From Candidatus Mediterraneibacter surreyensis (GTDB lineage: Bacteria > Bacillota > Clostridia > Lachnospirales > Lachnospiraceae), in contig DWYB01000069.1 in assembly GCA_019118885.1 (NCBI GenBank), positions 1-36,286 on the forward strand: 36,286 nucleotides of DNA, given 5' to 3'. Under the pieces are notes generated by a model. That model had not been told where the DNA came from and ran no database searches. It saw nothing but the letters and a program-made list of their open reading frames with translations. Below are positions 9,051 through 24,761 of this stretch, one piece after another (within the stretch, counting starts at the first letter, position 1; every line of letters starts with the position of its first letter). Both the position numbers and the translations under genes were made by a program.

Positions 9051-10475
9051 ATGAGAAAATCAATGTGTTTAAAGTGGATTAAAAAATACTTAAAAGAAGT
9101 TTCCGAGCAGAAAGGCGATGAAAAACATCAGAATCCCTGTGTCAAGTTCCGAGAATATGCCAAACAAGGAACATATAACCGTCTTTCGGACGATGACTAC
9201 AATGAACTTCTGGCGGAGGCTGAAGAACTCTCTGATCCATGGAACAGGCAGTATTCGAAAACTTCCGCTCAGCTTTTCGCAAATTTTATATCCGAACTGA
9301 AAATAGATGAAATGAATATGCAGGCGCTGGCAGAGCTTCTGTCGGACTGTTATGAGGCTGCTCACGGAGAGTTTACAGCGGAGGATAAGGTGCCGTGGAA
9401 AGATCCGCAAGGGAAAAAAATACCGGATATATACGACTTTTCCGGGAAAGAACAAAATGACGGACGAAATGAGGAGGTCTTTATGAAAGACGTCCGTATG
9501 AAAGCTGACGGACAGACGATGAAGTTCGATCCGAATTTCGCTACAAGCCCGAAAGCGATCAAGGAATATATCTCCCGGAGGATCTACGGGCAGGAAGAAG
9601 CAGTAAAAGCTGCGTCGATCCTTCTGTACAATCACATCCTGGGAAGAAAAAGAAATCTCCTTTTTATAGGACCTACCGGTTGCGGAAAAACAGAAATATG
9701 GAGAACTCTGCAGGATATCTATCCCTGCATCAGGATCATCGACGCCACGGCCATTACGATGCAGGGATGGAGCGGAAGTTTCAAGATCCAGGATATTTTT
9801 TACGGTATGAGTACTGACGAAATAGAGAGATCCATTATCGTTTTTGATGAATTTGATAAATTCTGTGAACCGAAATTCGGATCCGGAGGAACAAACTATG
9901 CTATGGCCGGTCAGAACGAACTTTTGAAGATGATCGAAGGGGCCCGAATGTGTTTCCCTCGGGAGAAAGAAAAGTCCGCTCTTGAATTTGACAGTTCCGG
10001 TATCAGTTTTGTATTCTGCGGGAGTTTTGAAAGACTTGTCAAAGAAAAAAGCGCATATGAAGAGAATGAGACGATCGGATTCGGAAGAGATTGCAAGAAA
10101 ACTGACAGCAGCCTTCAGTATGAGAAGACGATCACTCCGAAAGATCTGGTAACCTATGCCGGGATCCGTCAGGAGATCGCCGGACGTATCCAGCAGATCG
10201 TACAGCTGCATCCTATGACGGAGAAAGATTTTCTATGTATCCTGCAGGACGAACATCTCTCGCCGCTCCACACCCTGGAGAGACAGTATGGAGTTAAGAT
10301 CCATCTGAATGAGGAAACGGAAAAAAGGCTGGCCGAAGATGCTGCAGAGACAGGGTTCGGAGTAAGATATCTTCACAGCCGGCTCCAGGAATATCTGGAT
10401 GAACAGATATATGGAGACTGTAACAGAAGAGAATATTGGCTTGATGACCATGTTCCTTTCAAAGAAAGTATGTGA
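9051..10475 (+). CDS. ClpX-type AAA+ unfoldase with ClpP-docking loop
   Basis: The 474-aa protein is a divergent ClpX-family ATPase. After a unique N-terminal region (1 to about 160) that lacks the ClpX zinc-finger CxxC pairs, the AAA+ module shows Walker A GPTGCGKT (207-214), a pore-loop position GWSG (239-242, GYVG in ClpX) and Walker B IIVFDEFDK (262-270). It also shows TIGFG (341-345), matching the IGF loop that docks ClpX on ClpP, an arginine finger in IAGRI (R379), and sensor-2 GVRYL (R439). These are the parts needed to unfold proteins and feed a peptidase. A ClpP homologue lies at the other end of the island (24126-24761). The start at 9051 follows GAAAGG; an in-frame ATG at 8997 lacks a ribosome site. 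The odd N-terminus probably selects substrates or binds neighbours. Confidence 0.85.
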   Translation: MRKSMCLKWIKKYLKEVSEQKGDEKHQNPCVKFREYAKQGTYNRLSDDDYNELLAEAEELSDPWNRQYSKTSAQLFANFISELKIDEMNMQALAELLSDCYEAAHGEFTAEDKVPWKDPQGKKIPDIYDFSGKEQNDGRNEEVFMKDVRMKADGQTMKFDPNFATSPKAIKEYISRRIYGQEEAVKAASILLYNHILGRKRNLLFIGPTGCGKTEIWRTLQDIYPCIRIIDATAITMQGWSGSFKIQDIFYGMSTDEIERSIIVFDEFDKFCEPKFGSGGTNYAMAGQNELLKMIEGARMCFPREKEKSALEFDSSGISFVFCGSFERLVKEKSAYEENETIGFGRDCKKTDSSLQYEKTITPKDLVTYAGIRQEIAGRIQQIVQLHPMTEKDFLCILQDEHLSPLHTLERQYGVKIHLNEETEKRLAEDAAETGFGVRYLHSRLQEYLDEQIYGDCNRREYWLDDHVPFKESM

Positions 10476-10481
10476 TATACT
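10473..10481 (+). promoter_or_regulatory. Possible extended -10 promoter overlapping the ClpX-like stop codon
   Basis: TGATATACT matches an extended -10 box, and its TGA is also the stop codon of the upstream gene. It sits in the palindrome AAGTAT-GTGAT-ATACTT (10466-10482). The same ATGTGATATACTT string occurs before the gene at 16703. No good -35 box is visible. Confidence 0.35.
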
Positions 10482-10503
10482 TGAGCTTAGGAAAGGAAAC
10501 GAT

Positions 10504-11574
10504 ATGAAAAAGGAAGAACAGAGAAAAACAGGTCAGAAAGAAACGGATAATATTGCGCTGTTAAAGTTTCGGGAGAAGCTTTTCCTGGAGGAGATGGAGC
10601 AGTACAGAGCAGGACTTACGGGAGAATATGAGAGTATTCTCCCATATGTAAGAGACGGTGACGGCCGTTACAGCGAAAAGAAAACCTGTGAGTTAATTGA
10701 TGAACTGACAGACTATGCCCGGCTTTACCGGAAATACGAGTCAGAAGAGTATCTGCAGAAGTTAGAGGAATCCGGAAGGTCTGACGAAGAGATAGAAGAA
10801 CTGATGATGTTATTCCCTGAATTTGGACCGGATCAGGAGGCTTTTTTCCGGGCTTTTCTTTATTGTGCGCTTCGGATATCCGAGATGGATATGCTCTGCG
10901 ACCCTGAAGGAAAAGATATTTCCAGGGCAACGCAGACATTTCACGATCTTCTGTGGTTTTCCGGGGAGCATTATAAGAGTCCGGAGGAACTGTATGTCGG
11001 CGAGGCGGTATCGGAGGCTCTCAGGAATGATTATGCTGATATGAAAGGAATATACAGGCCGGCTTCCTGGCTGGTCCATATGCTCACCGGAAAGGCTCTG
11101 TCAAACCTTTATCCGGAAGAACTTCAAAAGGAATATTTTCACTATATCCCCAGGGGGCTCCGGAGAGTTATAGAAGAGCTGGGGTGCACCCCGTCGGAAT
11201 TTTTCCGCGCAAACTGGAAGGAGGGATTTCTTTCCGATGAGAAATTAATGAAAGAAATAGCAGAACAGGTAAAAAACCAGTTTGAGGAGCCTGAAAAGTT
11301 CGTGGAGTGCTATCTTTATTTTCGATCCAAAAGATACGATCCGCGCTATGATAGCGCTGACCCGGAATTAGTAGCAGAAGTTGTCGACATGATGAATATA
11401 GTGTACAGCCTGGACGATTATGTAAAAGCGGCGGTTCAGTTATTTACAGAAAAGAGGGGGCTTTCTCATCTGCAGGATGATGACACATATTTTACAGCGA
11501 TGACTCTGCTCCGGAGAGCGGAAAAGCAGCTGAAAAAAGCGGCGATGGAAGATAGGAGAAGATTTTGTGAATGA
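10504..11574 (+). CDS. Unrecognised 356-aa soluble protein in the island
   Basis: I do not recognise this family. The protein is acidic and predicted to be mostly helical. It has no signal peptide, membrane span, Walker motif or obvious nuclease motif. The N-terminal ~20 residues are charged (KKEEQRKTGQKE). A patch near residues 130-180 contains DLLWFSGEHYKSPEEL, and the C-terminus is basic (RRAEKQLKKAAMEDRRR). The start at 10504 is set by AGGAAAGG; the frame is open upstream, but that part overlaps the ClpX-like gene. It ends eight bases inside the next gene, so the two are translationally coupled. Its place just after a ClpX-type unfoldase suggests an adaptor or substrate, but this is inference only. 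Confidence 0.75.
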   Translation: MKKEEQRKTGQKETDNIALLKFREKLFLEEMEQYRAGLTGEYESILPYVRDGDGRYSEKKTCELIDELTDYARLYRKYESEEYLQKLEESGRSDEEIEELMMLFPEFGPDQEAFFRAFLYCALRISEMDMLCDPEGKDISRATQTFHDLLWFSGEHYKSPEELYVGEAVSEALRNDYADMKGIYRPASWLVHMLTGKALSNLYPEELQKEYFHYIPRGLRRVIEELGCTPSEFFRANWKEGFLSDEKLMKEIAEQVKNQFEEPEKFVECYLYFRSKRYDPRYDSADPELVAEVVDMMNIVYSLDDYVKAAVQLFTEKRGLSHLQDDDTYFTAMTLLRRAEKQLKKAAMEDRRRFCE

Positions 11575-12898
11575 TAGTTACAGCCATTTTCATGACGGAC
11601 TTTTTGAAGATTTGCGGCGTGGAGTGATGTTTTATGAAGGCCGTTCAGTATTGTGCTGTTATTTTCGGGAAGAGAAGAGAAATCACAGGAAGGTAAGAGA
11701 ACGAAAAAGCATTTATGAGAAGACGGCGGTTTACGGACCGCCTGCAGTTCCTGTGGAAGAAACATGGGAAAAGGAAACATGGGGAAATGGAGAGAAGCCA
11801 GTGCGTCGATCTTCCGGACGACAGCCGGCGGTAGAGATCCTTTGCCGGTATTATGATTTTCTTGCAGATTATGAAATCTGCCGCAGACGGAGGGATCCGG
11901 CAGGCGCAGCCGAAAGCGCCGAGGCTTTTCTGGGGGAAATGCGTCGGCTGGCCGATGCGGCAAAAGTAGGAAAAAGAAGAAAAAAACCTGTTTTCGAGGA
12001 GCTGGAAAGAATGCAGGAAACATACCGGCATGAGCGGACAGAGCGTCTGGTGGAACGGATAATGGATCTCCATCTCTATGCGGAAGCTGCTCAGTTTCTG
12101 TATAATGGAGGTTACCCTTTGCCCAGGGAAACAGAAGGGGAGTATGATCTGGATTGGGAGAAGCAGGAGAAGACTCGCCTGATAAAACTTGAAAGATCCA
12201 GGATAAAGACTCTTCCGATGGGGCTTTTGGACATGTATTTTTCCAGAAAGGACCTGTCCTTTCAGAAGTTATCGGCAATTAACCGGACAGCGCCTCACCA
12301 GGTATCCCGCAACATGGACATGAAAGAAGAGATAGAAGAAGTTTATCGGTTTGTCTGTGAAAAAGAGATGGATACAGCCGTTGTTCCGCTGCTGATCGAC
12401 AATGATTCGGGCAGCGGGCTGTATATCATCGGCAGAGCCTATCTGAAGAGCTGGAACGGAGATGTCCGAATGCGCAGGAGAGTAAATGACATACTGGGAG
12501 ACCAGACCTGCTGTTATGCCATCGTGAAATTTCTGAATCTGGAGGCGCGGCTTGATGACACTTATCTGTGGACGCCTTATTCTGTTGTGGATATGGTTTA
12601 TGAAAGCTGCGATACAAATCCGGAGAATATTCTTTTTTCCGATCTTGAGAAAGCGCTGAATATATATGAAGGACAGCTTGGAGTGAGGTCGGGGAATATT
12701 CTTTACGAAAATTTTCATCTGGTCAACCAGCTTGACGAAGAAGAAAGCCTGGAACTGATTCCGCCCGGTTACAGAAAGTATTTCGATGTACCGCGGCAAG
12801 AGGAGGATATGAGGGAAGATATAAAATCATTGAAGGAAGAGTATAAAGTCAGACTAAAAAATGAGCGTTTTTGTAAAAAAAATATTGATCTGAGTTGA
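11567..12898 (+). CDS. Unrecognised 443-aa protein, GTG start
   Basis: I do not recognise this family. Translation probably starts at GTG 11567, which has AGGAG at 11554-11558 and overlaps the preceding stop by eight bases. The first ~110 residues are rich in arginine and glutamate. Residues from about 230 look like a folded domain with helices and segments such as NDSGSGLYIIGRAYLKSWNG and LGDQTCCYAIVKFLNLEARL. No membrane span or nucleotide-binding motif is seen. The last ~14 codons (from about 12855) run into an intergenic repeat that recurs after recQ, so the C-terminus may have been extended by that repeat. It forms an operon with the two genes before it and ends at a terminator. Confidence 0.75.
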   Translation: MNDSYSHFHDGLFEDLRRGVMFYEGRSVLCCYFREEKRNHRKVRERKSIYEKTAVYGPPAVPVEETWEKETWGNGEKPVRRSSGRQPAVEILCRYYDFLADYEICRRRRDPAGAAESAEAFLGEMRRLADAAKVGKRRKKPVFEELERMQETYRHERTERLVERIMDLHLYAEAAQFLYNGGYPLPRETEGEYDLDWEKQEKTRLIKLERSRIKTLPMGLLDMYFSRKDLSFQKLSAINRTAPHQVSRNMDMKEEIEEVYRFVCEKEMDTAVVPLLIDNDSGSGLYIIGRAYLKSWNGDVRMRRRVNDILGDQTCCYAIVKFLNLEARLDDTYLWTPYSVVDMVYESCDTNPENILFSDLEKALNIYEGQLGVRSGNILYENFHLVNQLDEEESLELIPPGYRKYFDVPRQEEDMREDIKSLKEEYKVRLKNERFCKKNIDLS

Positions 12899-13050
12899 AT
12901 TACGGGAAAAAATGAAAGTACTATAAATTTTTTACTCCCTGTCCTTTTGATGAAGAAGGACGGGGAGTTTTTTTGTAAAAAAACAAAAATTTACTACTAC
13001 ACAACGAAAAACACAACGACAAAAGAGAGCTGCGCTCTCCGGGTGAAAAA
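12855..13050 (+). repeat. Intergenic module copy A (related to 22611-22800)
   Basis: Shared elements in order are AAAATGAGCGTTTTTG, TTACGG-N16-TATAAA (12900-12927), a terminator hairpin (12934-12975), and a small hairpin GAGAGC-TGC-GCTCTC (13025-13039) followed by CCGGGTGAAA. Copy B has the same order with matching base changes on both sides of the stems. It separates the first island operon from the VirD4-like gene. Confidence 0.75.
12934..12975 (+). terminator. Rho-independent terminator of the first island operon
   Basis: ACTCCCTGTCCTT (12934-12946) pairs with AAGGACGGGGAGT (12956-12968), followed by a T tract. It is part of intergenic module A. Confidence 0.9.
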
Positions 13051-13099: not shown

Positions 13100-14452
13100 A
13101 TGAATAATTTAACTGATTCTACTAAATCCACAAAAATCAAACTGAGCGTCTTGAGCGGGAGTCGAGATGTAACTCCGGAAATATCACAGAAGGCCGGACG
13201 GCGCCTGGCTGTCGGTCGGTATGTGAGCGATAACGATCTAACCTCGGGAATGAATAATAACGACCTCATTATCGGCTGTTCCGGCAGTGGAAAGACAGGA
13301 GGCTATGTTATTCCGAATATACGGAGATGCCATGGCAGTATGGTCGTTACAGATACAAAAGGCCAGCTTTATCACAGGTTGAGTAAAGAGCTTTCAGATG
13401 CCGGATATAAAGTATACCTGCTCGATTTTATCAGACCGGAGCGTTCCATGGGCTATAATCCGCTGGATTACATCCAGAAGAAGACGGACAAATCTCAGAC
13501 CGGACAGGATGGGCAGAACGGCAGCGCGTACTGTACAAGAGATATTGTATCACTGGCGCATATCCTGTGCCCGATCCGGCAGGATGACAGAGATCCGTTC
13601 TGGCAGCAGGCGGCTCAGACTGTGATTACATTCCTTCTTGCTTTTACACTGGAAGCGCTGGTTCCGGAAGAACATGATATGATCTCGGTTTTAAATCTGT
13701 TCCGCCAGCTGTGCGTTCCTTCTGGAAGGGCAGCAATCGAACAGTGGTGTATGGATAATCCGGCATCCTTTGCGGCAAAGAAATACGGAACATTCTGTGG
13801 TATCTATGAAGCGGATCGGACCTGGGCGTGTATACAGCAGTTTGCATCTGAGGCGCTGCAGATCTTTGATTATGAGGAGATTACGCCGATGTTCAATAAC
13901 AAAGACAAATCAAAACTCCTTGACCTGCATATGATCGGCCGTGAGAAGACAGCGGTATTTCTGAATATCAGCGATACAAACCGGTATGCAGATCAGCTGG
14001 TAAATCTGTTCTATGTCCAGGCAATGCAGGTGCTCTGTGAAGATGCAGACAATATACGCCCCACGGGCCGTCTCCGGATACCGGTGCGTTTTATCCTGGA
14101 TGATTTCGCTGCGAATGCATATATAGAAAACTTTGACAAGCTGATTTCTGTAATACGCTCGCGTAATGTCTCTGTCAGTGTGATTCTGCAGAATATGACA
14201 CAGCTCTATTCTATGTATTCAGAAGCCGAGGCTTCCACTATACTGAATAACTGTGATCATATCCTCTATCTGGGCGGACAGGATATCCAGACAGCAGAGT
14301 ATATCGGCATCCGTTCCAATAAGACGGCGGAAAATATTCTGCTTATGCCGCGCAATAAGGCGTATCTGCTTGAAAAAGGAAGTCGCGGCGAACTGGTCGA
14401 TAAGATAAAACCCTATGCAGAAGATGCAAGAAAAGAACGAGACAAGCTGTAG
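13100..14452 (+). CDS. Soluble VirD4/TraG-type (TraM-recognition) ATPase
   Basis: The 450-aa protein has the core of type IV secretion coupling proteins: Walker A GCSGSGKT (59-66), the VVTDTKGQLY segment (82-91, VVTDPKGEL in VirD4), Walker B FILDDF (331-336) and the following glutamine segment ILQNMTQL (362-369). VirD4 coupling proteins normally begin with two membrane helices; none is present here, and no relaxase, VirB4 or mating-channel gene is in the window. Walker B reads LDDFA rather than LDEFA. It is therefore more likely a cytoplasmic DNA- or protein-translocating ATPase recruited for another task than part of a working conjugation system. AAAGGA lies 12 bases before the ATG. A hairpin (14439-14462) spans its stop codon. 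Confidence 0.85.
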   Translation: MNNLTDSTKSTKIKLSVLSGSRDVTPEISQKAGRRLAVGRYVSDNDLTSGMNNNDLIIGCSGSGKTGGYVIPNIRRCHGSMVVTDTKGQLYHRLSKELSDAGYKVYLLDFIRPERSMGYNPLDYIQKKTDKSQTGQDGQNGSAYCTRDIVSLAHILCPIRQDDRDPFWQQAAQTVITFLLAFTLEALVPEEHDMISVLNLFRQLCVPSGRAAIEQWCMDNPASFAAKKYGTFCGIYEADRTWACIQQFASEALQIFDYEEITPMFNNKDKSKLLDLHMIGREKTAVFLNISDTNRYADQLVNLFYVQAMQVLCEDADNIRPTGRLRIPVRFILDDFAANAYIENFDKLISVIRSRNVSVSVILQNMTQLYSMYSEAEASTILNNCDHILYLGGQDIQTAEYIGIRSNKTAENILLMPRNKAYLLEKGSRGELVDKIKPYAEDARKERDKL

Positions 14453-14727: not shown

Positions 14728-14762
14728 GAACCCGGTGCCAACGGCGCCGGGTTCCGATTTTT
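14728..14762 (+). terminator. Rho-independent terminator after the 57-aa gene
   Basis: GAACCCGGTGCC pairs with GGCGCCGGGTTC across a 3-base loop, followed by CGATTTTT. It lies between convergent genes and may also slow transcription of the minus-strand cassette. Confidence 0.85.
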
Positions 14763-14783: not shown

Positions 14784-15413
14784 TCAGACAAAAATTGCAG
14801 ACACAAATTTGTAATATCGACTGTTATATGGTGTTCCAATACTGACAACTAATATAGCTTTTTCAAATCTGGTTTCATTTTGGATTTTAAGATATTTACG
14901 GTCTGTTACAGACATATTTTTATACTCTGTTTCCTGATACTTGAAGCTGGCTTTTAGTTTAGTTTTTCCCTCCGTGTTCTCCTCTCGAGTAAAGACCAGA
15001 TCGAATACCTCAACCATGATCAAAGAATACCCGACTGAATCCACTCGCGCCTCTGTAATGTATATATAATCATTTCCCAAAATATTTCTTTTTCTTTCTA
15101 ATGGATGGATTTTCAGCACCTCATCAAGAGTCATTCTTCCGCTGATCTTAATCGGTGTATCCAAATCAAGTAAAACATTTTCCGGCTGGATACAATCATC
15201 ACACATTTTCAGTATAGGCGCATCTATGACATCTAAAACTTCTACACTTCGACCATCTTCACAAATTAAAGCACTGTCTGATACAGCGCCATGACTTTCT
15301 TCGTTTTCTGTCACAAGTCTTACCCAGGCGCCATTACTCAGATCAATGCCTGCAACACAGTTATCTCCATATTTAGCCGATTTTGTTAATACTACCATCT
15401 TAATGTATTCCAT
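14784..15413 (-). CDS. Probable dual OB-fold (DuOB) protein of a DUF488 cassette
   Basis: The 209-aa product starts MEYIKMVVLTKSAKYGDNCV and contains GAWVRLVTENEESHGAVSD, then many beta-strand-like segments. This pattern resembles the dual OB-containing domain that I recall being described in prokaryotic conflict systems beside DUF488 genes; OB folds usually bind nucleic acid or nucleotides. The start at 15413 follows AAAGGAG by 11 bases; an in-frame ATG at 15446 would overlap the previous gene. It is the last gene of a three-gene minus-strand cassette whose base composition is far more AT-rich than the rest of the island, which suggests separate acquisition. The family assignment is from memory of sequence features and needs a profile search. 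Confidence 0.6.
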   Translation of the reverse strand: MEYIKMVVLTKSAKYGDNCVAGIDLSNGAWVRLVTENEESHGAVSDSALICEDGRSVEVLDVIDAPILKMCDDCIQPENVLLDLDTPIKISGRMTLDEVLKIHPLERKRNILGNDYIYITEARVDSVGYSLIMVEVFDLVFTREENTEGKTKLKASFKYQETEYKNMSVTDRKYLKIQNETRFEKAILVVSIGTPYNSRYYKFVSAIFV

Positions 15414-15432: not shown

Positions 15433-15870
15433 TTATATGTGGACAATTTTATCTCCTGATTCTTTACTTAAAGCTTCCGCCAGCAATCTCCTGTGACAGC
15501 ATTCGGGCGTTGGTTCCGAACATAACAACAGTACATTATCATACTTAAGATATTTAGTTTTAAAAAGGTCTGAAACATTTCGCCTTTTTATTAACTCATT
15601 GTATTCAACCTCGTATTCTTCCCAACTTATTTGATTTTTTTTATACCGGTCCAGTATATCTTTCGTTGGCGCAAATGGAATCTCATGACTATATTCACAA
15701 TTACAAATTTCTTTTAAGAAGAAACTTAGATCCCGTCCTTTTGTAAAACCTGCCAGTTGGGAGTGGTTATTCAATCTGACATCGATCAATATTTCTATAT
15801 GATGTTCCCGGATTAAATTAAAAAAAACTTCTGCGCTCTTTTTTGTAAAACCCATTGTGAAAATCTGCAT
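15433..15870 (-). CDS. DUF488 family protein, short form
   Basis: The 145-aa protein shows the DUF488 pattern. An N-terminal beta strand with FTMGFT leads to a LIDVR motif (residues about 27-31) and then a C-terminal LLLCSEPTPECCHRRLLAEAL segment, where the cysteine plus CHR cluster is the family hallmark. The biochemical activity of DUF488 is not established to my knowledge; association with defence-type loci has suggested recognition or processing of nucleic acid or nucleotides. The start at 15870 is chosen for AAGGAG nine bases upstream; an in-frame ATG at 15891 precedes it. It lies between the other DUF488 gene and the dual-OB gene, in the same direction with short spacers, so the three are almost surely one operon. 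Confidence 0.8.
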   Translation of the reverse strand: MQIFTMGFTKKSAEVFFNLIREHHIEILIDVRLNNHSQLAGFTKGRDLSFFLKEICNCEYSHEIPFAPTKDILDRYKKNQISWEEYEVEYNELIKRRNVSDLFKTKYLKYDNVLLLCSEPTPECCHRRLLAEALSKESGDKIVHI

Positions 15871-15904
15871 ATCTGTTTTCTCCTTATACAATAGTTCTTT
15901 CTGT

Positions 15905-16510
15905 TTACTCTAAATGATAACCGATTTCTTTATTACGCTTCCGATAAGCTGATTTTATAATTTCTTCATCGTTTACGGGATCATTGTAATCAAATAACGA
16001 TAACTGTGTTCTATCGGGGAAATATCTGTCTAATAACCGCCTGTCCAGTTCCTGCTGTGTTTGGAGCTTTCCATCTGGAAGAATATGTTGTACATCAATC
16101 CCCTCTAAAGAAAACGCCCTTGCCACCATAATAGCTCTATGACAATCAATGGGATCTTTTTCTGTGCACATTAATACAATGTTATTTCCTTTTTTTAATC
16201 CTAATTTTACATTTTCCATACCCGTGATAAATAAATCTGAACGGGATGTCTTTTCAAAGTCCAAATATCCTTCTTTACTGTATAAATCAGTATTATCTGG
16301 TCTTGCGCCAAAAAATTTACCCATAAAAAAGTATGTTATTCCTTCTGAGGCCAATGAATTCTCAAGCTGTTCCCTATTGAATGTCTCGGCATATTTTGAA
16401 TATGGAGTGCTTCTTACATCAAGCAAATAATTTATCTCAAACTTTTTTAACAAATTTGCAAAATATTCAAATTCATATCGGGAATGACCAATCGTATATA
16501 ACAATCCCAT
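15905..16510 (-). CDS. DUF488 family protein, long form
   Basis: The 201-aa product carries the full DUF488 layout: YTIGHSRYEFEYFANLLKKF at the N-terminus, LLDVRSTPYSKY, a central KFFGARPDN segment, and VLMCTEKDPIDCHRAIMVAR with the C...CHR motif. A C-terminal extension of about 50 residues follows, with TQLSLFDY near residue 170. It is the first gene of the AT-rich cassette and has AGAGGTGA upstream. The two DUF488 genes are paralogues of different length (201 and 145 aa), so they may form a heteromeric complex with the dual-OB protein. No methyltransferase or helicase is in the cassette itself; McrBC starts just beyond, in the other direction. Confidence 0.85.
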   Translation of the reverse strand: MGLLYTIGHSRYEFEYFANLLKKFEINYLLDVRSTPYSKYAETFNREQLENSLASEGITYFFMGKFFGARPDNTDLYSKEGYLDFEKTSRSDLFITGMENVKLGLKKGNNIVLMCTEKDPIDCHRAIMVARAFSLEGIDVQHILPDGKLQTQQELDRRLLDRYFPDRTQLSLFDYNDPVNDEEIIKSAYRKRNKEIGYHLE

Positions 16511-16702: not shown

Positions 16703-17191
16703 ATGCTGACAAAACCGGAAGCCGGATGGACAGAATTTCATCTGGAGGGAACACATACATATACGCTGAGTTATACGGACCGCATTGCGTCGGACTGGAT
16801 GGGGCAGGCGATACACGGACTTGAAACCATGCTTCCATTCTGTGTGAAGGGCTTTCTGGAACCAGGACGGGTCTTATGTACGGTTAGCTACTGGAACTGT
16901 CATGTTATATACGGATCCGATGGTTCGGAACCGCTGAGCAAAAGTTATACGGACTGGGAAATTTCCCATACAAGTATGCTGCAGTTCTGCAAATATCTCA
17001 GCCATGATATCGAGGAGTATTTTGATGAGTGGGTTTTGTTTGACTGCGGCTCCTATGAGGAGAATATCGATCTGATAGATCGGGATTATATGGAGGAAGT
17101 AAGAAAAGAACTGACCGGAAAACTGGCGCGTTTAAAAGAACTGATCTCTGAAAAGGAGTGTCTGTTTAAAGAAGGTCAACATTTTATGTGA
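16703..17191 (+). CDS. Unrecognised 162-aa protein preceding McrB
   Basis: The start is supported by AAGGAGG nine bases upstream. The protein is acidic and soluble, rich in aromatic residues and cysteine. Segments include GTHTYTLSYTDRIASDWMGQ near the N-terminus and LDYM-like helices (DLIDRDYMEEVRKELTGKLA) near the C-terminus. I recognise no family. Its TGA overlaps the upstream GTG candidate start of mcrB, so it is the first gene of the McrB-McrC-RecQ operon and probably serves it, for example as a sensor or a specificity subunit. This role is inferred from position only. Confidence 0.75.
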   Translation: MLTKPEAGWTEFHLEGTHTYTLSYTDRIASDWMGQAIHGLETMLPFCVKGFLEPGRVLCTVSYWNCHVIYGSDGSEPLSKSYTDWEISHTSMLQFCKYLSHDIEEYFDEWVLFDCGSYEENIDLIDRDYMEEVRKELTGKLARLKELISEKECLFKEGQHFM

Positions 17192-17211
17192 TAAGACAGG
17201 GGGATGGGCAG

Positions 17212-19188
17212 ATGCAGATGTACGAAGCTTTGGAGCGTTACAAGAGAGAACTCAAAGATGAACTGGAAAACGGTTCAGCAGCCACAAAGCACTGGGAAAA
17301 TATAAAGTGCAGGCTGGACTGCATAAAATATTTTCAAAAAGACGGGAACCCGGATGTTTCCGGCTTTATTGCCCAATTAGAGGCAGACCCGGGGTATGTG
17401 AATGCTTTGGCGGCTGTGACGGATACGAATAAAGATTATTTTATAAATGTACTGAAGTCTGTCAGAAAGGATCCCGAGAAAGCGGAAAAAGCATTTGGCA
17501 CATTGTTTGATGAAACTTGTGACATGTGGGATCGGATTGAAGGATTTCAGAAGGATATGCGTCAGTTCCCCCGTATCTCCGGAGGTGATTTCTGGTCCGA
17601 CAAGAATTATACTTCAGAGACGGCGGCCAGTATTTATCTGTGGCTTTATTGCCCGGAAAAGTATTATATCTACAGATTCTGGGAGGCACAGACGATTTCG
17701 AAAGCGCTTGGAGAAAAGGAGCGTTTCAGGATCGGAGCGGACAGAGAAAATATAAAAAGCTGTTACCGCCTGTATGATGAGATCAGGGAAGAGATCATCG
17801 GAGACAGAGAGTTGACCGGACTGCTTGAACGGCAGGATGATTATGGGAAATATGACAAGGATTGGCGTATTCTCACCGCAGATATAGTATCAGCATTCAG
17901 CATGTATGCCGCAGATTCAGAGGATAAGATCGAGATAACGAAACGCTTTTTTGACAGTTTGTCTGTGGATGACTGGCTTCGGGTAATGGAAGACGAAGAT
18001 GTGTTTACACAGGATAATATAAAAGTATTGATGTATCTGAAGCACAAGGAAGAATGGCAGCGCAGGGGGTTCGTCGGACTTACCAGGGAGTATCAGAAAA
18101 AATATAATAACAATACAGATATTTTCACTGCGGGCGGAGCGCTTATGTGGCGGCTCGTGCATAAGGCCGGAAGTCCGGCTCCAAAGCAGAACGGCGAGTC
18201 CGGCATACAGCTGGTTCTGTACATTGAAAGCGATAATGACGGTGAAGTTACATACAGACTGAGAGACTCACTTGTCAGAGCGCTTAATGCGTTGGAATAC
18301 ACAAAAGAGGATTTCCTTTCGGATGTATATATGGGTGATCAGGATCATACAGCATTGGAGAAATATGAGGAGTTAAAAAACATCCTGATAAGGAAGAAAA
18401 ATATTGTCCTTCAGGGTCCGCCCGGAGTGGGGAAAACTTTTATGGCCAAAAGGCTTGCCTATTCAATGACAGGATGGAAGGATGATGAACGGATCCGGTT
18501 TGTCCAGTTCCATCAGAACTATACCTATGAGGACTTTGTGATGGGATACAAGCCGGATGGAGACGGCTTTAAGCTTAAGGAAGGTATATTTTATAAGTTC
18601 TGTAAAAAAGCTGCAGGTGATCCTGATCGTAAGTATTTCTTTATCATCGATGAGATCAACCGGGGCAATATCAGCAAGATATTCGGAGAGCTGCTGATGC
18701 TGATCGAGAAGGAGTACCGTGGGGAAAAGATCACGATGGGTTATACGGGTAAGGAATTTTCTGTTCCGGAAAATCTTTATATTATAGGGATGATGAATAC
18801 GGCGGACAGAAGCCTGGCCATGCTCGATTATGCCCTGAGGAGAAGGTTCAGTTTTTTTGACGTTAAGCCGGGATTTGATTCGGAAGGTTTTAAAATACAT
18901 CAGGATAGACTGGAAAATAGGCATTTTAACGGCGTGATTAAAGAACTGAAAAAACTAAATGATGAGATTAGAAAAGATCCGCTGCTGGGCCCGGGATTCT
19001 GCATCGGACACAGCTATTTTTGTGACTGTACTCCTGAGAAATGTACGGATGAATGGATCCGTTCGGTACTGGATTATGACATTTTCCCCATGTTGAAAGA
19101 GTACTGGATTGATGATGAAGACGACAGAAGATTTAAGAATTGGAAAAAAAGTTTTAAAGATGTGTTCGAACAAACAGAAAAAAGCTAA
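17212..19188 (+). CDS. mcrB: McrB-type AAA+ GTPase of a McrBC restriction system
   Basis: In type IV restriction, McrB recognises modified DNA through its N-terminal domain and moves along DNA using GTP. Here residues 1 to about 390 are a variable N-terminal region with no named domain that I can see. The motor follows: Walker A GPPGVGKT (402-409), Walker B IIDEINRGNISKIFGELL (from about 478), and GMMNTADRSLAMLDYALRRR with sensor and arginine residues (about 525-545). The INRGN and NTADRS motifs are typical of the McrB family. ATG 17212 has AGGGGGAT upstream; GTG 17188 in the same frame is an alternative, adding eight residues. The end overlaps mcrC by 29 bases. The unusual N-terminus decides the target and cannot be named from sequence. 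Confidence 0.9.
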   Translation: MQMYEALERYKRELKDELENGSAATKHWENIKCRLDCIKYFQKDGNPDVSGFIAQLEADPGYVNALAAVTDTNKDYFINVLKSVRKDPEKAEKAFGTLFDETCDMWDRIEGFQKDMRQFPRISGGDFWSDKNYTSETAASIYLWLYCPEKYYIYRFWEAQTISKALGEKERFRIGADRENIKSCYRLYDEIREEIIGDRELTGLLERQDDYGKYDKDWRILTADIVSAFSMYAADSEDKIEITKRFFDSLSVDDWLRVMEDEDVFTQDNIKVLMYLKHKEEWQRRGFVGLTREYQKKYNNNTDIFTAGGALMWRLVHKAGSPAPKQNGESGIQLVLYIESDNDGEVTYRLRDSLVRALNALEYTKEDFLSDVYMGDQDHTALEKYEELKNILIRKKNIVLQGPPGVGKTFMAKRLAYSMTGWKDDERIRFVQFHQNYTYEDFVMGYKPDGDGFKLKEGIFYKFCKKAAGDPDRKYFFIIDEINRGNISKIFGELLMLIEKEYRGEKITMGYTGKEFSVPENLYIIGMMNTADRSLAMLDYALRRRFSFFDVKPGFDSEGFKIHQDRLENRHFNGVIKELKKLNDEIRKDPLLGPGFCIGHSYFCDCTPEKCTDEWIRSVLDYDIFPMLKEYWIDDEDDRRFKNWKKSFKDVFEQTEKS

Positions 19189-20386
19189 TATCTGGATAAA
19201 AAATATCTATTACATGCTGGCCTATGTCTGTGACGCCCTGACATTGTCGGAGTTTAAAAATATGGAAAAGGAAGAGGACTTTGAGAACATTTATGATATG
19301 TTTGCCTCCGTGCTGGAACAGAGGATCTCATTTCAGCTGAGACGAGGACTGCACAGGGAATACCGGAGTAATACTGAAGAGATGACGGTGGTGCGCGGAA
19401 AGCTGGATATGCCCGGAACAGTTCGTAATCGGATTCAGAGGCGCTACACAGTGACCTGTGAGGTGGATGAATTTTCGGAAAATAATCTTTTCAATCAGAT
19501 CATCAAAACAACCGCTTTTCTACTACTGAAACGGTCGGAAGTGGACAGACGATATAAAAGCAGACTGAGGCAGAAAATGATGTATTTTAATAATGTGGAT
19601 CGCATTGATCCGAAACTGATCCGCTGGAACAGCATTCAGTATGACAGGAATAATCGGAACTACCGTCTGCTGATCGAACTGTGCAGATTTATTATAGACG
19701 GGATGGTGCTTCCGACAAAAAGGAATGGCGATTTCAGTCTGCCTTCCCTGAAGGAGGCTGTCGGATACTGGAAAGATAATGATAAGATGAATCAACTGTA
19801 CGAGGCATTCGTGCGGAATTATTACAGAAGGGAATATCAGGGAACTCCCGGATTTTCTGTCGATGATGAGTGGATGGAATGGCAGGGTGACATAAAGGGA
19901 AACAGGAAGGCGGCATGGAGGCTGCCGAAGATGCACACGGATATCACACTGACCTGCGACAGGAAGGACGGCAGAAAAATACTGATCATCGATACCAAGT
20001 ATTATCACGGGATCCGGAAAAAGGATGAGAAGGAAAATAAAAATACAACAGACAGTGCTGACAGACCCCGTATCCATGAGGACAATATTTATCAGATATT
20101 TGCCTATGTGAAAAACAAGGAGGAGATGGAACGAAGATACCGTGTGAAAAATAAGGAAGAGACGAAAGGAAGCCCCCGGAAAGACAAAGTAAGCGGGCTG
20201 CTTTTATATGCCAGAACGAATGAGGAAAATGTTCCCGAGAATATAAAGTACGATCTGATCGGCAGCACGATCGGGCTGGATACGCTGGATCTGAATACGG
20301 ACTTTAAAGAGATATGCAGGCAACTGGAAAAGATCGTCTGCGACAGCGACTATCTGTATTCTGATATCAGGAAGCAGAAGAGGTGA
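19160..20386 (+). CDS. mcrC: McrC-type PD-(D/E)xK nuclease subunit
   Basis: The 408-aa protein is the cleavage partner of McrB. The N-terminus IWIKNIYYMLAYVCD matches the McrC family start. The nuclease core is seen as HTDITL (D261) and LIIDTKYY (D278-x-K280). The 19160 start gives the usual McrC N-terminus; an in-frame ATG at 19109 is deeper inside mcrB. There is no good ribosome site, which fits translational coupling through the 29-base overlap. All catalytic positions are present, so the system should be active. The following RecQ helicase begins four bases after the stop. Confidence 0.9.
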   Translation: MCSNKQKKANIWIKNIYYMLAYVCDALTLSEFKNMEKEEDFENIYDMFASVLEQRISFQLRRGLHREYRSNTEEMTVVRGKLDMPGTVRNRIQRRYTVTCEVDEFSENNLFNQIIKTTAFLLLKRSEVDRRYKSRLRQKMMYFNNVDRIDPKLIRWNSIQYDRNNRNYRLLIELCRFIIDGMVLPTKRNGDFSLPSLKEAVGYWKDNDKMNQLYEAFVRNYYRREYQGTPGFSVDDEWMEWQGDIKGNRKAAWRLPKMHTDITLTCDRKDGRKILIIDTKYYHGIRKKDEKENKNTTDSADRPRIHEDNIYQIFAYVKNKEEMERRYRVKNKEETKGSPRKDKVSGLLLYARTNEENVPENIKYDLIGSTIGLDTLDLNTDFKEICRQLEKIVCDSDYLYSDIRKQKR

Positions 20387-20390: not shown

Positions 20391-22613
20391 ATGGGGTACG
20401 AGAACGACGACCTGCTGGAGGATATAAAAGAATATTTCCCCTGGTTTGACAGCTTCAGAGAAGGGCAGGAAGCGGTGATCCGGTCGGTCTTAGCGGGCCG
20501 GGATGTGCTGGCTGTCATGCCTACGGGGAGCGGTAAATCTGTCTGCTATCAGTATCCGGCAATGAAACTTCCGGGAATTACACTGGTTGTATCGCCGCTG
20601 ATCGCACTGATGCAGGATCAGGTTGAGCATCTTCGGGGAGACGGGATAAAGGCCGCATGTCTGAACAGTGCGGTTCCATCCAGGGAGCGCCAGAGGATCA
20701 TGCAGGAAGCGGATGACGGCAAATGTAAACTGATCTATGTATCGCCGGAGAGGCTGGCGTCTCCGGAATTTATACGTTTCGCAAGAAGGGAGGAACTCTC
20801 CCTTCTTGTTGTGGACGAGGCACACTGTATTTCGCTGTGGGGATATGATTTCCGTCCGGATTATCTGAGGATCCCGGAATTCCTTAAGCAGGTGGGGAAA
20901 CGACCGGCAATCGCGGCGTTTACGGCTACGGCGTCTCCACGCGTAAGGGCTGAGGTGCAGGAGGAGCTGGGGCTTACAGATGCATTTTGCGTCGACACCG
21001 GACACCGTAGGGAGAATCTGTGTCTTTCCGTCCGGCGCTATAAGTCGGAGGGAAGGAAGCGCCAGCACTTGTACCGGTATGTGGAGACGCACGGGGAACA
21101 GACAGGGATCGTATACTGTGCAACTACGGAGGCTGTTGACGATCTGTACGAACGCCTGAATGACAGAGGGTATCCGGCGGCAAAATATCACGGAAAACTC
21201 TCAGGAGCGGAGAGAAAAGAGAATATGAAGGCGTTTATGTCCGGAGAGAAGAAAGTTATGGTGGCGACGAATGCTTTTGGCATGGGAGTGGATAAGGAGG
21301 ACATTCGATATGTGATCCATTTCCATATGGCAAAGGATCCGGAGAGCTATGCTCAGGAGATCGGCCGGGCAGGCCGCGATGGAAGAGACTCAGAGTGCAT
21401 TCTGTATTATGCACCCCAGGATGAGGGTGTATTTCGGAGGATACTCGGTCAGAAGCGCTCGGACAGTCTGCAGAGACTGGACGGCGAGGCGGCGGACTTT
21501 TTGTTCCGGACGGGTATGAAGCGTTTTCAGGCAATGGCGGAATATGCAAGAACAGGTGTGGGAAACGATACAGATACGCTTCAGGAATGGCTGGGTGATT
21601 ATCTTACCGGGAAGACCGGAGAAAATGAAACGGACAGAGAACTGGAGGAAGAAGGCGAGCGGATCAGACAGTCAATCCGGGAAGCGCGCCGGGATATCCA
21701 GGAGCTGTATACGAATGAAACGAAGATGGCGCAGCAGATACGAAAAGGGCATTACACTCCGGGAGTTAACGAAGAGATACGGATAGACAGGAAGAATGGC
21801 AGTCCGCTTGTGCATATATTCTGCCTGAGCGGCAGGCTGAGCTATTTTGACATGATGGTGGCGGATGCGGTTTATACCCTGTATTTTCTGGGAAAGAAAA
21901 AGATCTACATAAAAAATATTCTGGAACTGCTGTCAGGGGATCCGTCTGCCACGCTGAAACCAGAGAGGGGCGGCACTGAAGGGGAAAAGCAGGATAAACG
22001 CACGATGTTTGCGGAAAGTCTGGAACGAATGGCCCATACGGACATTTATATCAGCAGGAAACGGGGGCCGTTCGGGTCGGTCTTTGCGGATGAGAAGGAG
22101 CAGACGGAATTAAGAGGCGCGTTTCTTCCGATCCAAAAAGAGGGAAAGAACGGATACAGGATCACAGATGTTCCCCCGCTTTACCGGTATGCAGAACTGA
22201 CGGGCAGTCAGTTTTATAAGATTCCACGGAACTGGCTTTTCATCAGGAATGAGAAGGCAGCCAAGATGCCAAACTCCATAGAAAACCTGGAACTCCGTCA
22301 TTTTCTGGCACGGCGGATCCAGCTTATCATGAGACACTGTACACAGGAAAAAATGGGATGGAAACCGCGGATCCGGCTGCAGCGGGGAGAAAGGGAACAA
22401 CCGGGCATGTATGAGATTCTGGATATAGAGTTCCCGGATGATCCGTACCGGAAGAAAAGAAAACGGGAGACTATTGAGAAAAAGATCTGTACGATCCTGG
22501 AATACTATAAGAGATACTGTGTATATGGCGTGAGCGGATATAAATTCTATGAAGATGAATACACAGGCGGGGAAGAGGGAAATATCAGTCTGGGTATCCA
22601 ATTCTTCCTTTAA
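20391..22613 (+). CDS. recQ: Divergent RecQ-family DNA helicase with novel C-terminal half
   Basis: The 740-aa protein has a full RecQ helicase core: FREGQEAVI (22-30), MPTGSGKS (43-50), DEAH (142-145), the RecQ aromatic-rich loop as ISLWGYDFRPDY (147-158), and QEIGRAGRDGRD (about 320-332). It would unwind DNA 3'-to-5' using ATP. Beyond the core it departs from RecQ. The zinc-binding subdomain cysteines are missing: where MxxYC is expected, MAEYARTG is seen. The last ~350 residues show no clear RQC or HRDC domain. AGAGGTG precedes the ATG. Because it is the last gene of the McrBC operon, it probably acts on the DNA that McrBC recognises or cuts. It is unlikely to be the housekeeping RecQ. Confidence 0.88.
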   Translation: MGYENDDLLEDIKEYFPWFDSFREGQEAVIRSVLAGRDVLAVMPTGSGKSVCYQYPAMKLPGITLVVSPLIALMQDQVEHLRGDGIKAACLNSAVPSRERQRIMQEADDGKCKLIYVSPERLASPEFIRFARREELSLLVVDEAHCISLWGYDFRPDYLRIPEFLKQVGKRPAIAAFTATASPRVRAEVQEELGLTDAFCVDTGHRRENLCLSVRRYKSEGRKRQHLYRYVETHGEQTGIVYCATTEAVDDLYERLNDRGYPAAKYHGKLSGAERKENMKAFMSGEKKVMVATNAFGMGVDKEDIRYVIHFHMAKDPESYAQEIGRAGRDGRDSECILYYAPQDEGVFRRILGQKRSDSLQRLDGEAADFLFRTGMKRFQAMAEYARTGVGNDTDTLQEWLGDYLTGKTGENETDRELEEEGERIRQSIREARRDIQELYTNETKMAQQIRKGHYTPGVNEEIRIDRKNGSPLVHIFCLSGRLSYFDMMVADAVYTLYFLGKKKIYIKNILELLSGDPSATLKPERGGTEGEKQDKRTMFAESLERMAHTDIYISRKRGPFGSVFADEKEQTELRGAFLPIQKEGKNGYRITDVPPLYRYAELTGSQFYKIPRNWLFIRNEKAAKMPNSIENLELRHFLARRIQLIMRHCTQEKMGWKPRIRLQRGEREQPGMYEILDIEFPDDPYRKKRKRETIEKKICTILEYYKRYCVYGVSGYKFYEDEYTGGEEGNISLGIQFFL

Positions 22614-22800
22614 AAATGAGCGTTTTTGAAAAAATAATATCGATTTGAGTTTAGTTACGGGGAATGTTCTAAACACTATAAATCCTTTATCCCTGTCCTT
22701 TTTACAAGGGCAGGGATTTTTGTATGCAAAAAAAGGAAAAAGGATTTGCCCACAACAAAACTAAAAAACTAAATGAAAGCTTCGCTTTCCGAGTGAAATT
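22611..22800 (+). repeat. Intergenic module copy B (related to 12855-13050)
   Basis: This copy begins at the recQ stop codon. It has AAAATGAGCGTTTTTG, TTACGG-N16-TATAAA (22655-22682), a terminator hairpin (22689-22721), and GAAAGC-TTC-GCTTTC (22775-22789) followed by CCGAGTGAAA. Spacing matches copy A, and the stems differ by paired changes. The rest of the gap to 22911 shows no gene. Confidence 0.75.
22689..22721 (+). terminator. Rho-independent terminator after recQ
   Basis: ATCCCTGTCCTT (22689-22700) pairs with AAGGGCAGGGAT (22706-22717) around a short loop, followed by TTTTT. It is part of intergenic module B. Confidence 0.9.
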
Positions 22801-22911: not shown

Positions 22912-23133
22912 ATGTTATACGCTTGCGCTATGGTAGGTTACATCTATTCTTTTGTACAATTTGTAAAAATGTGTGCATTCTTATTCACTGACTCTGTGGC
23001 TATCCGTGTTTACGATAAGTCTTACCGAGACAGCGATCCAAGAATGGCCCGCCTGAAAAGATCTTACAAGGCATTCGGTAAGATGCTCCTTGGGGCTCTT
23101 GTTGCTACAGGCTTTATGATGCTTACATTCTAG
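22912..23133 (+). CDS. Unrecognised 73-aa small membrane protein
   Basis: AAAGGAGG precedes the ATG. Hydrophobic stretches at about residues 3-27 (ACAMVGYIYSFVQFVKMCAF) and 56-72 (MLLGALVATGFMMLTF) flank a basic, tyrosine-rich loop (YDKSYRDSDPRMARLKRSYK). It could be a two-helix membrane protein. It is the first gene of the last island operon, after intergenic module B, and is followed by two soluble proteins and ClpP. A holin-like or membrane-effector role is possible, but nothing in the sequence proves it. Confidence 0.7.
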   Translation: MLYACAMVGYIYSFVQFVKMCAFLFTDSVAIRVYDKSYRDSDPRMARLKRSYKAFGKMLLGALVATGFMMLTF

Positions 23134-23166: not shown

Positions 23167-23553
23167 TTGTACAAAGGACAGAAACTCAGCATAAAGACAT
23201 TTCAGAGTAATCATTCATTTACATTCATAGAGGATATGGAGACGATCCTGAGACTCACTAAGGAGCTGCTGGATATGCCGCTCTGCAAAGTCTACCATCC
23301 TGTATGGACCGAGCCTGACTTTTCGCCTGCCATATATCTGGGAGAGATTTACTGTGAAGACGGGGTGCTTCCGGCGGAATGCAGTGGGAGGCTTGACACA
23401 CTCAGCTATGCGGAAGCGCTGGCGCTTCTCAGGGCAGACCTGGATCTTCCTGAGAGACGAAAGAAGCTGGAGACAGAGGGTTTCATAGATGCGCTGCTCA
23501 GGATGTATGTGTATCTGTATGTAGGCTACCTGAAAAAAGGCAACAGCAAATAA
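23167..23553 (+). CDS. Unrecognised 128-aa protein, probable TTG start
   Basis: The frame follows the 73-aa gene. A GTG at 23155 lies directly on the AAAGGAGG site, too close to be used, so TTG 23167, 11 bases downstream, is the better start. The product is soluble and acidic, with a helical C-terminal half (TLSYAEALALLRADLDLPER). The C-terminus is aromatic (LLRMYVYLYVGYLKKG). I recognise no family. The spacing to both neighbours is short, so it belongs to the clpP operon. Confidence 0.65.
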   Translation: MYKGQKLSIKTFQSNHSFTFIEDMETILRLTKELLDMPLCKVYHPVWTEPDFSPAIYLGEIYCEDGVLPAECSGRLDTLSYAEALALLRADLDLPERRKKLETEGFIDALLRMYVYLYVGYLKKGNSK

Positions 23554-23584: not shown

Positions 23585-24085
23585 ATGCAGGACTTATCAT
23601 TAAAAAGCCTGGCTGTAGATGCAGCTATGCATAAGGGAACAGATATGAGCAGGAAGAAAAAGGAAGCCGGCCAGGCCCTGAGCAGTATTATCTTCGGGGT
23701 TACAGAGGAGAGGGGGGCGGAGAGTGTTCCGGAACTGTTCCTGAATATCAGCTTGAAGAGATTCTATGCTGTAATGTTCAAAGGCTGCCTGATGGCAAGC
23801 CGGGGGCGAAATCCGGAAAGAGCAGCGAGATATAAGAAGATTTATTCGATGATCACATTGTCTGTTCCGGGCGCAGAACGGATGACCATCGGTCAGTTCC
23901 TGCGATACATCAACGAGGAGTGTATGAACAGGGAGTGTCCTGAGGGCATAGATAAAAAGCAGTATATACAGGATATCAGCAAAGGAAAACATCTGGCAAA
24001 GCTCTTTTTCGTAGATACGTTTGAGCCTATCTTAAACAACTACAAGCTGAACTGTGAATCCGTAGTCTCGAAATTATGTTCCTGA
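23585..24085 (+). CDS. Unrecognised 166-aa protein upstream of clpP
   Basis: AAAGGAGA lies before ATG 23585. The product is basic and mostly helical, without membrane spans. Segments include MSRKKKEAGQALSSIIFGVT near residue 21 and LNISLKRFYAVMFKGCLMAS near 53. No motif names a family. It sits 40 bases before the ClpP gene and might be a delivery factor or substrate for it; this rests on position only. Confidence 0.7.
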   Translation: MQDLSLKSLAVDAAMHKGTDMSRKKKEAGQALSSIIFGVTEERGAESVPELFLNISLKRFYAVMFKGCLMASRGRNPERAARYKKIYSMITLSVPGAERMTIGQFLRYINEECMNRECPEGIDKKQYIQDISKGKHLAKLFFVDTFEPILNNYKLNCESVVSKLCS

Positions 24086-24125
24086 AATCAGAAAAATTCA
24101 AAGAAAAGAAAGGAGGGCATTACAC

Positions 24126-24761
24126 ATGCTCATTGTACCTAACATTATTGAAGAAACATCCAAAGGGATCCAGTCATTTACGATACAGGACTCCATGCTC
24201 AGAAACAGGGAGATCTTCCTGACAGGAGAAATTAATGAGGAATCTGCAACAGAGATCATCAGACAACTGATGTATCTTGAGAGCAGATCTTCGGATCCGG
24301 TCACCCTGTATATCAGCAGTCCGGGCGGCAGCGTTATGAGCGGCATGGCAATCTACGACTATATCGGTGTGATGCAGTCGAAGGTAAATACGGTCTGTAT
24401 TGGCCTGGCGGCCAGTATGGGGGCAATTCTGTTCCTGGCAGGTGCTGAGCGGATGATCCTGCCGCACTCGAAAGTGATGATCCACGATCCGTCTTACGGC
24501 GGCAATGCCAGTATAGCCGGACAGAAGCCGCTGGAGATACAGGAACAGCTCAATAGTCTGATGAAAACACGGCAGATCCTTGCCGACGTGATCGTTGCGC
24601 GGACCGGCATGTCCAGAAAGCGCGTGCTGAATCTCACAAAGAAAGATTCCTATTTTGATGCCGAAGAGGCCGTCAGGGAAGGGCTGGCGACGCGGATACT
24701 GGATAGCGCTGTGACTTCGGACGGGTTCAGGAAGGTTCAGACCGAAGACACGCCCTTTTAG
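24126..24761 (+). CDS. clpP: ClpP-family serine peptidase of the island
   Basis: The 211-aa protein is a ClpP homologue, the chamber peptidase that degrades proteins fed in by a ClpX or ClpA unfoldase. The triad is intact: S97 in GLAASMGA, H120 in VMIHDP, and D174 in KKDSYFDAEEAV. The substrate-binding strand with SSPGGSV (64-70) is also present. The N-terminus is short, and no long propeptide is seen. AAAGGAGGG sets the start. It stands apart from the usual tig-clpP-clpX-lon context and shares this island with a ClpX-type unfoldase that keeps the IGF docking loop. A dedicated pair is the simplest reading. It could also join the housekeeping ClpP or ClpX. Confidence 0.92.
   Translation: MLIVPNIIEETSKGIQSFTIQDSMLRNREIFLTGEINEESATEIIRQLMYLESRSSDPVTLYISSPGGSVMSGMAIYDYIGVMQSKVNTVCIGLAASMGAILFLAGAERMILPHSKVMIHDPSYGGNASIAGQKPLEIQEQLNSLMKTRQILADVIVARTGMSRKRVLNLTKKDSYFDAEEAVREGLATRILDSAVTSDGFRKVQTEDTPF

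Follow-up and report, generated by a model that had tools for sequence, protein, structure and literature searches.

The window analysed here is the whole of contig DWYB01000069.1 (36,286 nucleotides; GenBank assembly GCA_019118885.1) of Candidatus Mediterraneibacter surreyensis, a member of the Lachnospiraceae; the contig ends at both window edges. It carries a gene island (9051..24761) whose first gene encodes a ClpX-like AAA+ unfoldase, named ClpX* below (9051..10475, plus strand; 474 amino acids (aa), ATG start), and whose last gene encodes an accessory ClpP peptidase (24126..24761, plus strand; 211 aa). Between the two lie unkA, unkB, the gene of a soluble VirD4/TraG-like ATPase of the CD1115 family (13100..14452, plus strand; 450 aa), an M45-like block, the gene of a 162-aa protein, mcrB, mcrC, recQ, the gene of a 73-aa protein, and the genes of two small proteins, sA and sB. 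The main finding concerns ClpP: its near-constant neighbour in other genomes is the VirD4-like ATPase, and the unfoldase is an optional companion. G000 denotes the window's own genome, and G018, G026, G030 and G057 denote relatives in the genus; numbers preceded by L denote loci.

The island ClpP is distinct from the housekeeping enzyme. As the first-pass annotation had stated, the residues S97-H120-D174 of an intact triad are found in the 211-aa protein, and the housekeeping clpP and clpX sit elsewhere: they lie on another contig of G000, before a Lon-type gene and after a gene that we take, by eye, to encode trigger factor. A split with a support of 0.976 sets the island ClpP, as an accessory one, apart from 10 housekeeping ClpPs of the genus. 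The triad is conserved in the accessory rows (S in 73/73, H in 73/73, D in 71/73), the underlying tally also containing one housekeeping row. A close ortholog is found in three of the 58 genus genomes, all three of which also have the ClpX-like gene. A second accessory ClpP of G000, 46% identical to the first, is followed directly by another VirD4-like gene. This second module (L050, 11097-13917) precedes a gene presumed by eye to be RNase H-like, and the same layout is found in L055, L140, L142 and L143.

In G026, the genes are arranged in a row on one strand in the order ClpX*-unkA-unkB-McrB-McrC-RecQ-sA-sB-ClpP-VirD4. Because of this order and of the second ClpP-VirD4 pair in G000, contigs were scanned with VirD4-like sequences. 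Six queries from accessory-ClpP loci were used, and the locus set consists of the best 80 of 190 confirmed relatives. The 80 loci are not independent: five are from one Ruminococcus metagenome-assembled genome (MAG) and several are near-identical. L068 is the same locus as that of G057, and L069 the same as that of G026. In 71 of the 80 loci, a ClpP gene on the same strand lies no more than 150 base pairs (bp) from the VirD4-like gene; in 75, ClpP is found at a distance of up to 1.5 kb. The five loci lacking a ClpP within 1.5 kb are L068 (window type, short contig), L115, L120, L121 (3.4 kb contig) and L123. The gap in the 71 adjacent pairs has a median of 6 bp, and 25 of these pairs overlap.

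A second sample, which shares species with the first, comprised 299 Lachnospiraceae genomes, each of a different genus, searched for the VirD4-like protein at E<=1e-90. It was found in 17 genomes at 21 places, with ClpP adjacent at 18 and within 1.5 kb at 20. The only exception is the window itself, where ClpP and the VirD4-like gene have drifted 10 kb apart. Sequence distances of the two proteins are correlated (r=0.84 in 68 loci, where the highest of 500 permutations reached 0.16; r=0.77 in 52 non-redundant loci, where the highest of 1000 permutations reached 0.30), a correlation to which shared host ancestry may add. Carriers of the module are records of several groups of Clostridia and of Slackia, and the pair is also found on one IMG/VR contig. 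The near-constant partner of the accessory ClpP is therefore a short soluble VirD4/TraG-like ATPase, not ClpX*. Five VirD4-like loci of the ClpP-linked family (L074-L077 and L110) are found in the Ruminococcus MAG (JAMPDU).

The VirD4-like protein of the window scores 279.3 bits with the VirD4-like CD1115 conjugal transfer profile, above the cut-off of 250, and has a Walker A motif. It belongs to a ClpP-linked family that is split from seven longer CD1115-type sequences with a support of 0.977. Four conjugative controls were picked from the best 15 of 1776 plasmid records. ClpP-linked proteins have a median length of 422 aa versus 598-624 aa in the controls. The hydropathy of the controls peaks at 1.8-2.9, with the peak starting within the first 80 residues; the ClpP-linked family has a median peak of 1.23, and in the six of 79 that exceed 1.6 the peak is near residue 130. 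Judged by hydropathy, the ClpP-linked ATPase, including that of the window, is a form without a hydrophobic N-terminal segment, and no membrane domain is predicted. The second Walker B acid is D in 97% of the 79 rows versus E in all four controls.

The surroundings of the controls are of conjugation type: PcfB is beside VirD4 in four of four, PrgI and VirB4 in three of four, and no ClpP is found near VirD4 in flanks of up to 5 kb. No VirB4, PrgI or relaxase is found among 30 window proteins (a subset of the open reading frames) scanned with Pfam. Plasmid relatives of the VirD4-like protein are at most 33.1% identical among the best 15 of the 1776 records, and the four inspected are conjugation-type. 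Phage records gave 35 VirD4-like matches, also at most 33.1% identical among the best 15. A remnant of a conjugative element was considered and rejected, since no family of type IV secretion systems is present among the 30 scanned proteins and the plasmid relatives are distant.

In 49 of 73 rows, the gene immediately 5' of ClpP, on the same strand, encodes a protein no longer than 350 aa; in the other rows, that gene is VirD4-like (7) or longer (3), or there is none within 250 bp (14). In the window, sA (23167..23553, plus strand; TTG start likely) and then sB (23585..24085, plus strand) precede ClpP. Thirty of the 49 small upstream genes belong to the families compared. F2, a fused form with a length of about 250 aa, is tied strongly to F28 and F74 (98-99%); its ties to sB (70%, C-terminal half) and s127 (63%, N-terminal half) are moderate, s127 being the protein at the sA position of the second ClpP-VirD4 locus. 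The tie of F2 to the sA of the window is weak (31%), and F30, F33 and F50 are not firmly tied. Because F2 is tied to small-protein families, a common pair of small subunits upstream of ClpP is likely, as far as sequence relationships indicate. PADLOC 2.0 gave no family at E<=0.01 for ClpP, sA or sB.

ClpX* has an AAA+ core with the motifs of an unfoldase: Walker A at 207, Walker B at 262, TIGFG at 341-345 (IGF loop 342-344) and a sensor-2-like GVRYL at 437. The pore-1 loop is GWSG at 239, with Trp, versus GYVG in the housekeeping ClpX of G000. These motifs (Walker, pore loop, sensor 2) are assigned their usual roles. The IGF of ClpX* aligns with that of a solved ClpX (6wr2 chain A) and with that of the housekeeping ClpX of G000. 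TIGFG is identical in all five ClpX* orthologs; the one of G057 is 99% identical to that of the window. The N-terminal ~160 aa are novel: residues 1-160 contain only three Cys (6, 30, 100), not clustered, and no zinc-finger family matches ClpX* at E<=0.01. The first-pass annotation, which had described a ClpX-type AAA+ protein with TIGFG and without a zinc finger, is thus borne out by motifs, alignments and profile searches. ClpX* scores 106.9 bits with the NCBIfam equivalog of ClpX, below the cut-off of 359, and 38 bits with DolB in PADLOC 2.0. Docking of ClpX to ClpP through the IGF loop is described in PMC12383707, and the general docking motif (L/I/V)-G-(F/L) in PMC8745299.

The gene of ClpX* is followed by unkA (10504..11574, plus strand; 356 aa), with a predicted all-helical fold (predicted local distance difference test (pLDDT) 85.6), and by unkB (11567..12898, plus strand; 443 aa, GTG start), which overlaps unkA by 8 bp, has a conserved D278/G282 region and gives a model with a pLDDT of 71. 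Pfam and PDB profile searches gave no credible match for either protein, unkA having no Pfam match over cut-off. In fold searches, none of the matches listed stood out for either protein, a result that does not by itself argue for a new fold.

ClpX* is found in five of the 58 genus genomes, and unkA in the same five. Of these five carriers, two (G000 and G026) have ClpX* and ClpP on the same contig. In G057, ClpP sits on a separate contig, one end of which corresponds to the break in the ClpX* contig; in G030 and G018, ClpP is not in the fetched stretch. Lon replacing ClpP in G018 and G030 was considered and rejected: a close Lon (76-84%) and a Lon-like AAA are also found in genus genomes without ClpX*, such as G008, G012 and G027, the Lon-like AAA companion being within ~1 kb of the close Lon in G008 and G012. 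A second Lon gene and an opposed Lon-like AAA gene adjoin ClpX*-unkA-unkB in L030 (12392-16548; G018) and L028 (G030), an arrangement that is recurrent in the genus.

Wider profiles show unkA and/or unkB adjoining the ClpP-VirD4 pair in at least 13 of the 80 loci (with only unkB detected in L118, and only unkA in L139 and L144), and an AAA+ protein detected by the ClpX* profile in at least six. These counts are lower bounds because 40 of the 80 stretches measure less than 13 kb; the ClpX* of G026 itself lies outside its stretch. An (I/V)GF tripeptide occurs at the ClpX docking position in four of the six AAA+ loci. Divergent AAA+ proteins beside ClpP-VirD4 carry it in L117, L127 and L138 and lack it in L096 and L136. 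The AAA+ gene with the tripeptide adjoins the pair in L127 and is one gene away in L117, where it encodes a double AAA protein whose C-terminal domain is of ClpB type. In L136 (2316-10360), a single gene run encodes a 1220-aa AAA_2/AAA-M41 (FtsH-type) fusion, then VirD4, ClpP, unkA and unkB. A search for unkA found it in two of 299 genomes of the family and two of 391 of the class, three genomes in total (G000, G547 and G388), all with ClpP-VirD4 on the same contig and, in G388, in one gene run; these genome sets were not chosen by VirD4, and the unkA profile itself included rows from VirD4 loci. As an AAA+ protein is present in six of 80 stretches, with the docking tripeptide in four, the unfoldase is an optional, recurring companion of the ClpP-VirD4 pair.

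The remaining genes of the window island are neighbours of these elements. The McrBC, RecQ and VirD4-like proteins named in the first-pass annotation were all matched. On the plus strand, a 162-aa protein with no assigned function (16703..17191), also present in G057, precedes McrB (17188..19188; AAA_5 domain match), McrC (start at 19109 or downstream; 19109..20386) and a RecQ-family helicase (20391..22613; domain match). McrB and McrC domains are both present, as expected of McrBC; McrB scores 296 bits with its NCBIfam equivalog, below the cut-off of 637. A hydrophobic-looking protein of 73 aa (22912..23133, plus strand), also found in G057, separates recQ and sA. The plus-strand island is interrupted by a minus-strand block of three genes (14784-16510), whose products match the candidate defence set PDC-M45 of PADLOC: a DuOB protein (14784..15410, start uncertain; PDC-M45A), a DUF488-like protein (15433..15891; PDC-M45C) and a DUF488 protein (15905..16510; PDC-M45B). 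Neither this DuOB/DUF488/DUF488 block nor the 162-aa protein has a match in the G026 locus, and the VirD4 gene and the M45-like block are placed differently in G000 and G057 versus G026. The flanking transporter gene is present in four of the 58 genus genomes, two of them carriers.

Terminator-like hairpins are located on the plus strand after unkB (12934..12968; 15 pairs, T tail), after the VirD4-like gene (14728..14754) and after recQ (22689..22717), all three being from a consensus scan, which found 23 such sites in the region versus a mean of 13.8 in shuffles. Because of these hairpins and of the minus-strand block, the island does not look like a single operon; the sites, taken as consensus matches, would divide it into four plus-strand units. 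A private ClpX*-ClpP operon is not supported by the same sites or by gene order.

RecQ-like genes (profile E<1e-30) are found in 10 of the 80 stretches (seven strong, three only 1e-37 to 1e-42); in five of those, they lie ahead of ClpP, on the same strand. The distribution of the VirD4-like gene is sparse (17 of 299 genera), with two or more copies in some genomes; like the RecQ-like genes, these features are circumstantial signs of a defence role. McrBC, RecQ and the inserted PDC-M45-like set suggest a role in defence; they are neighbours, and their partnership with the ClpP module is putative. On the other side of ClpX*, three similar hsp20 genes are each preceded, at ~200 bp, by an operator resembling CIRCE (controlling inverted repeat of chaperone expression; 645-671, 3999-4025 and 8121-8147), with one or two mismatches to the consensus and none in 100 shuffles. 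The third is upstream of the hsp20 gene adjoining ClpX*, and an hsp20 gene is also located just 5' of ClpX* in G057. No CtsR operator was found at up to two mismatches.

The preferred reading, held tentatively and at a little short of an even chance, is that of a composite island in which ClpX* works for a dedicated ClpP chamber and the VirD4-like ring is a second motor. The core of the island would be the conserved module of ClpP and the soluble VirD4-like ATPase, in many cases with one or two small proteins ahead of it; to this core, the window lineage would have added the unfoldase block (ClpX*-unkA-unkB) and McrBC-RecQ. ClpP would form the usual double-ring chamber. ClpX* would dock by its IGF loop, unfold chosen proteins and feed them to ClpP; the novel N-terminal domain of ClpX* may select the substrates together with unkA, unkB and the small proteins. 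As the constant second motor, the VirD4-like ring would probably engage DNA or protein-DNA complexes and deliver or position protein targets. One step further, the whole system, beside McrBC and RecQ, might control incoming mobile DNA or phages, and a defence or mobile-DNA-control role, as the first-pass annotation had proposed, is an inference. The joint action of ClpX* and ClpP is supported in part: ClpP is accessory, a ClpX-like gene accompanies its close ortholog in three of three genomes, and AAA+ proteins are found beside other pairs; that the two form a private pair is not supported, the VirD4-like ATPase being the near-constant partner and ClpX* optional.

Several observations weigh against this reading. 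The predicted terminators place ClpX*, VirD4 and ClpP in separate units in the window. The ClpX*-unkA-unkB loci of G030 and G018 have no ClpP-VirD4 in the fetched stretch; one pair is present on another contig of G030. In G018 (85% complete), the VirD4-like search gave no match at E<=1e-40, and besides the housekeeping ClpP only a distant ClpP-like match (28%) was found, with no close accessory ClpP. ClpX* therefore does not need an island-type ClpP beside it. No AAA+ protein of the ClpX* profile is seen in 74 of the 80 ClpP-VirD4 stretches, a count limited by stretch length. The evidence for a defence role comes only from neighbouring genes. Finally, two positions putatively mapped to the hydrophobic pocket of ClpP are altered: the F82-equivalent is Y in 10 of 10 housekeeping rows, whereas of the 73 accessory rows 42 have L or A and one an aromatic residue there; the F112-equivalent is F in 10 of 10 housekeeping rows and E in 40 of the 73. 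The ClpP of the window has V and M at these positions. Since the positions are altered across the accessory clade, IGF docking is uncertain, and the clade could dock something else, perhaps the VirD4-like ring. A hydrophobic F112-equivalent is found in five of seven ClpPs with an AAA+ neighbour versus 13 of 66 without (Fisher p=0.008), a lead only, because the rows are related and L069 was put in the group without.

The altered pocket positions also speak for the alternative in which the VirD4-like ATPase, a HerA/TraG-type ring, itself drives ClpP, and ClpX* uses the housekeeping ClpP or acts as a chaperone. This is unlikely, if the foremost of the alternatives. It agrees with the position of the VirD4-like gene as that of the ATPase nearly always beside ClpP, with the covariation of the two proteins, with the 74 stretches without a ClpX*-profile AAA+ (presence of which is a lower bound) and with G018, where ClpX* occurs without the module. 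However, no (L/I/V)-G-(F/L) tripeptide is conserved among the VirD4-like proteins (one is present in 15 of 79, in scattered columns, versus a shuffle mean of 38), AAA+ proteins with a docking tripeptide lie at or near the pair in L127 and L117, and soluble VirD4-like rings are not known to unfold proteins. An equally doubtful form of the model has ClpP powered or targeted by the soluble VirD4/TraG-type ring, with one or two small adaptor subunits, as a self-compartmentalised protease with a motor of DNA-translocase type, and destroying proteins on foreign DNA, the ClpX* block being an optional second unfoldase.

That ClpX*-unkA-unkB, McrBC-RecQ, the PDC-M45-like set and ClpP-VirD4 are independent neighbours brought together by chance in an ordinary defence hot spot is improbable. 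The separate terminator-like sites, the different placement of the VirD4 gene and M45-like block between G000/G057 and G026, and the G018 and G030 loci, where ClpX*-unkA-unkB stands by itself, are consistent with it; recurrence of unkA and/or unkB beside ClpP-VirD4 in other genera (13 of 80; G547, G388) and of RecQ-like genes (10 of 80, five upstream of ClpP on the same strand) argues against it, these being raw counts without a chance expectation. A heat-shock or proteostasis locus, with an extra Clp protease for damaged protein beside the three hsp20 genes, is very improbable: the CIRCE-like operators and the hsp20 gene just 5' of ClpX* in the window and G057 fit it, but no hsp20 match is present in the G026 stretch or in other ClpP-VirD4 stretches except L068, the G057 locus, and the distribution is sparse (17 of 299 genera).

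No ClpP-VirD4 module was described in the titles and abstract starts listed by searches of open-licence papers. The ClpP partners known to us are AAA+ unfoldases. A conserved module of ClpP and a conjugation-type ring ATPase would widen what is known to drive or target a compartmental protease, and may reveal a protease-based policing of mobile DNA; if the VirD4-like ring itself drives ClpP, the system would be of a new kind. The ClpP-VirD4 gene set is small and directly testable.

The island may be compared with five known kinds of systems. The defence pairs HerA-DUF4297 and HerA-Sir2, likened here by description only, couple a ring ATPase of the FtsK-HerA-VirD4 kind to an enzyme gene, as in the island; unlike in these pairs, the enzyme here is a peptidase instead of a nuclease or NADase. 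McrBC and the candidate PDC-M45 are represented in the window by McrB and McrC domains and by matches to all three M45 proteins, but as neighbours of the ClpP-VirD4 module, not as its core. The island ATPase resembles VirD4 CD1115 coupling proteins in passing the profile cut-off and in having a Walker A motif; it differs in that its family is shorter, lacks the hydrophobic N-terminus and has D in Walker B, and in that PcfB, PrgI and VirB4 are absent among the 30 scanned proteins. ClpI unfoldases of Actinomycetota (PMC10149685) are likewise additional Clp unfoldases, in which the motif for docking to ClpP is either kept or lost; unlike ClpX*, they are of the double-ring type, like ClpB and ClpC, and the abstract of that paper mentions no VirD4-like link. 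With housekeeping ClpXP, the island shares a ClpP family match with its triad, an AAA+ core with the IGF loop, and alignable core motifs. It differs in the lack of a zinc-binding N-domain in ClpX*, in Trp for Tyr in pore loop 1, in a ClpX score below cut-off, in its location apart from the housekeeping clpP-clpX and in the near-constant VirD4-like neighbour. We read the island as a hitherto undescribed protease module that is built on ClpP and has an unfoldase as an optional part, a variant of Clp-type proteolysis.

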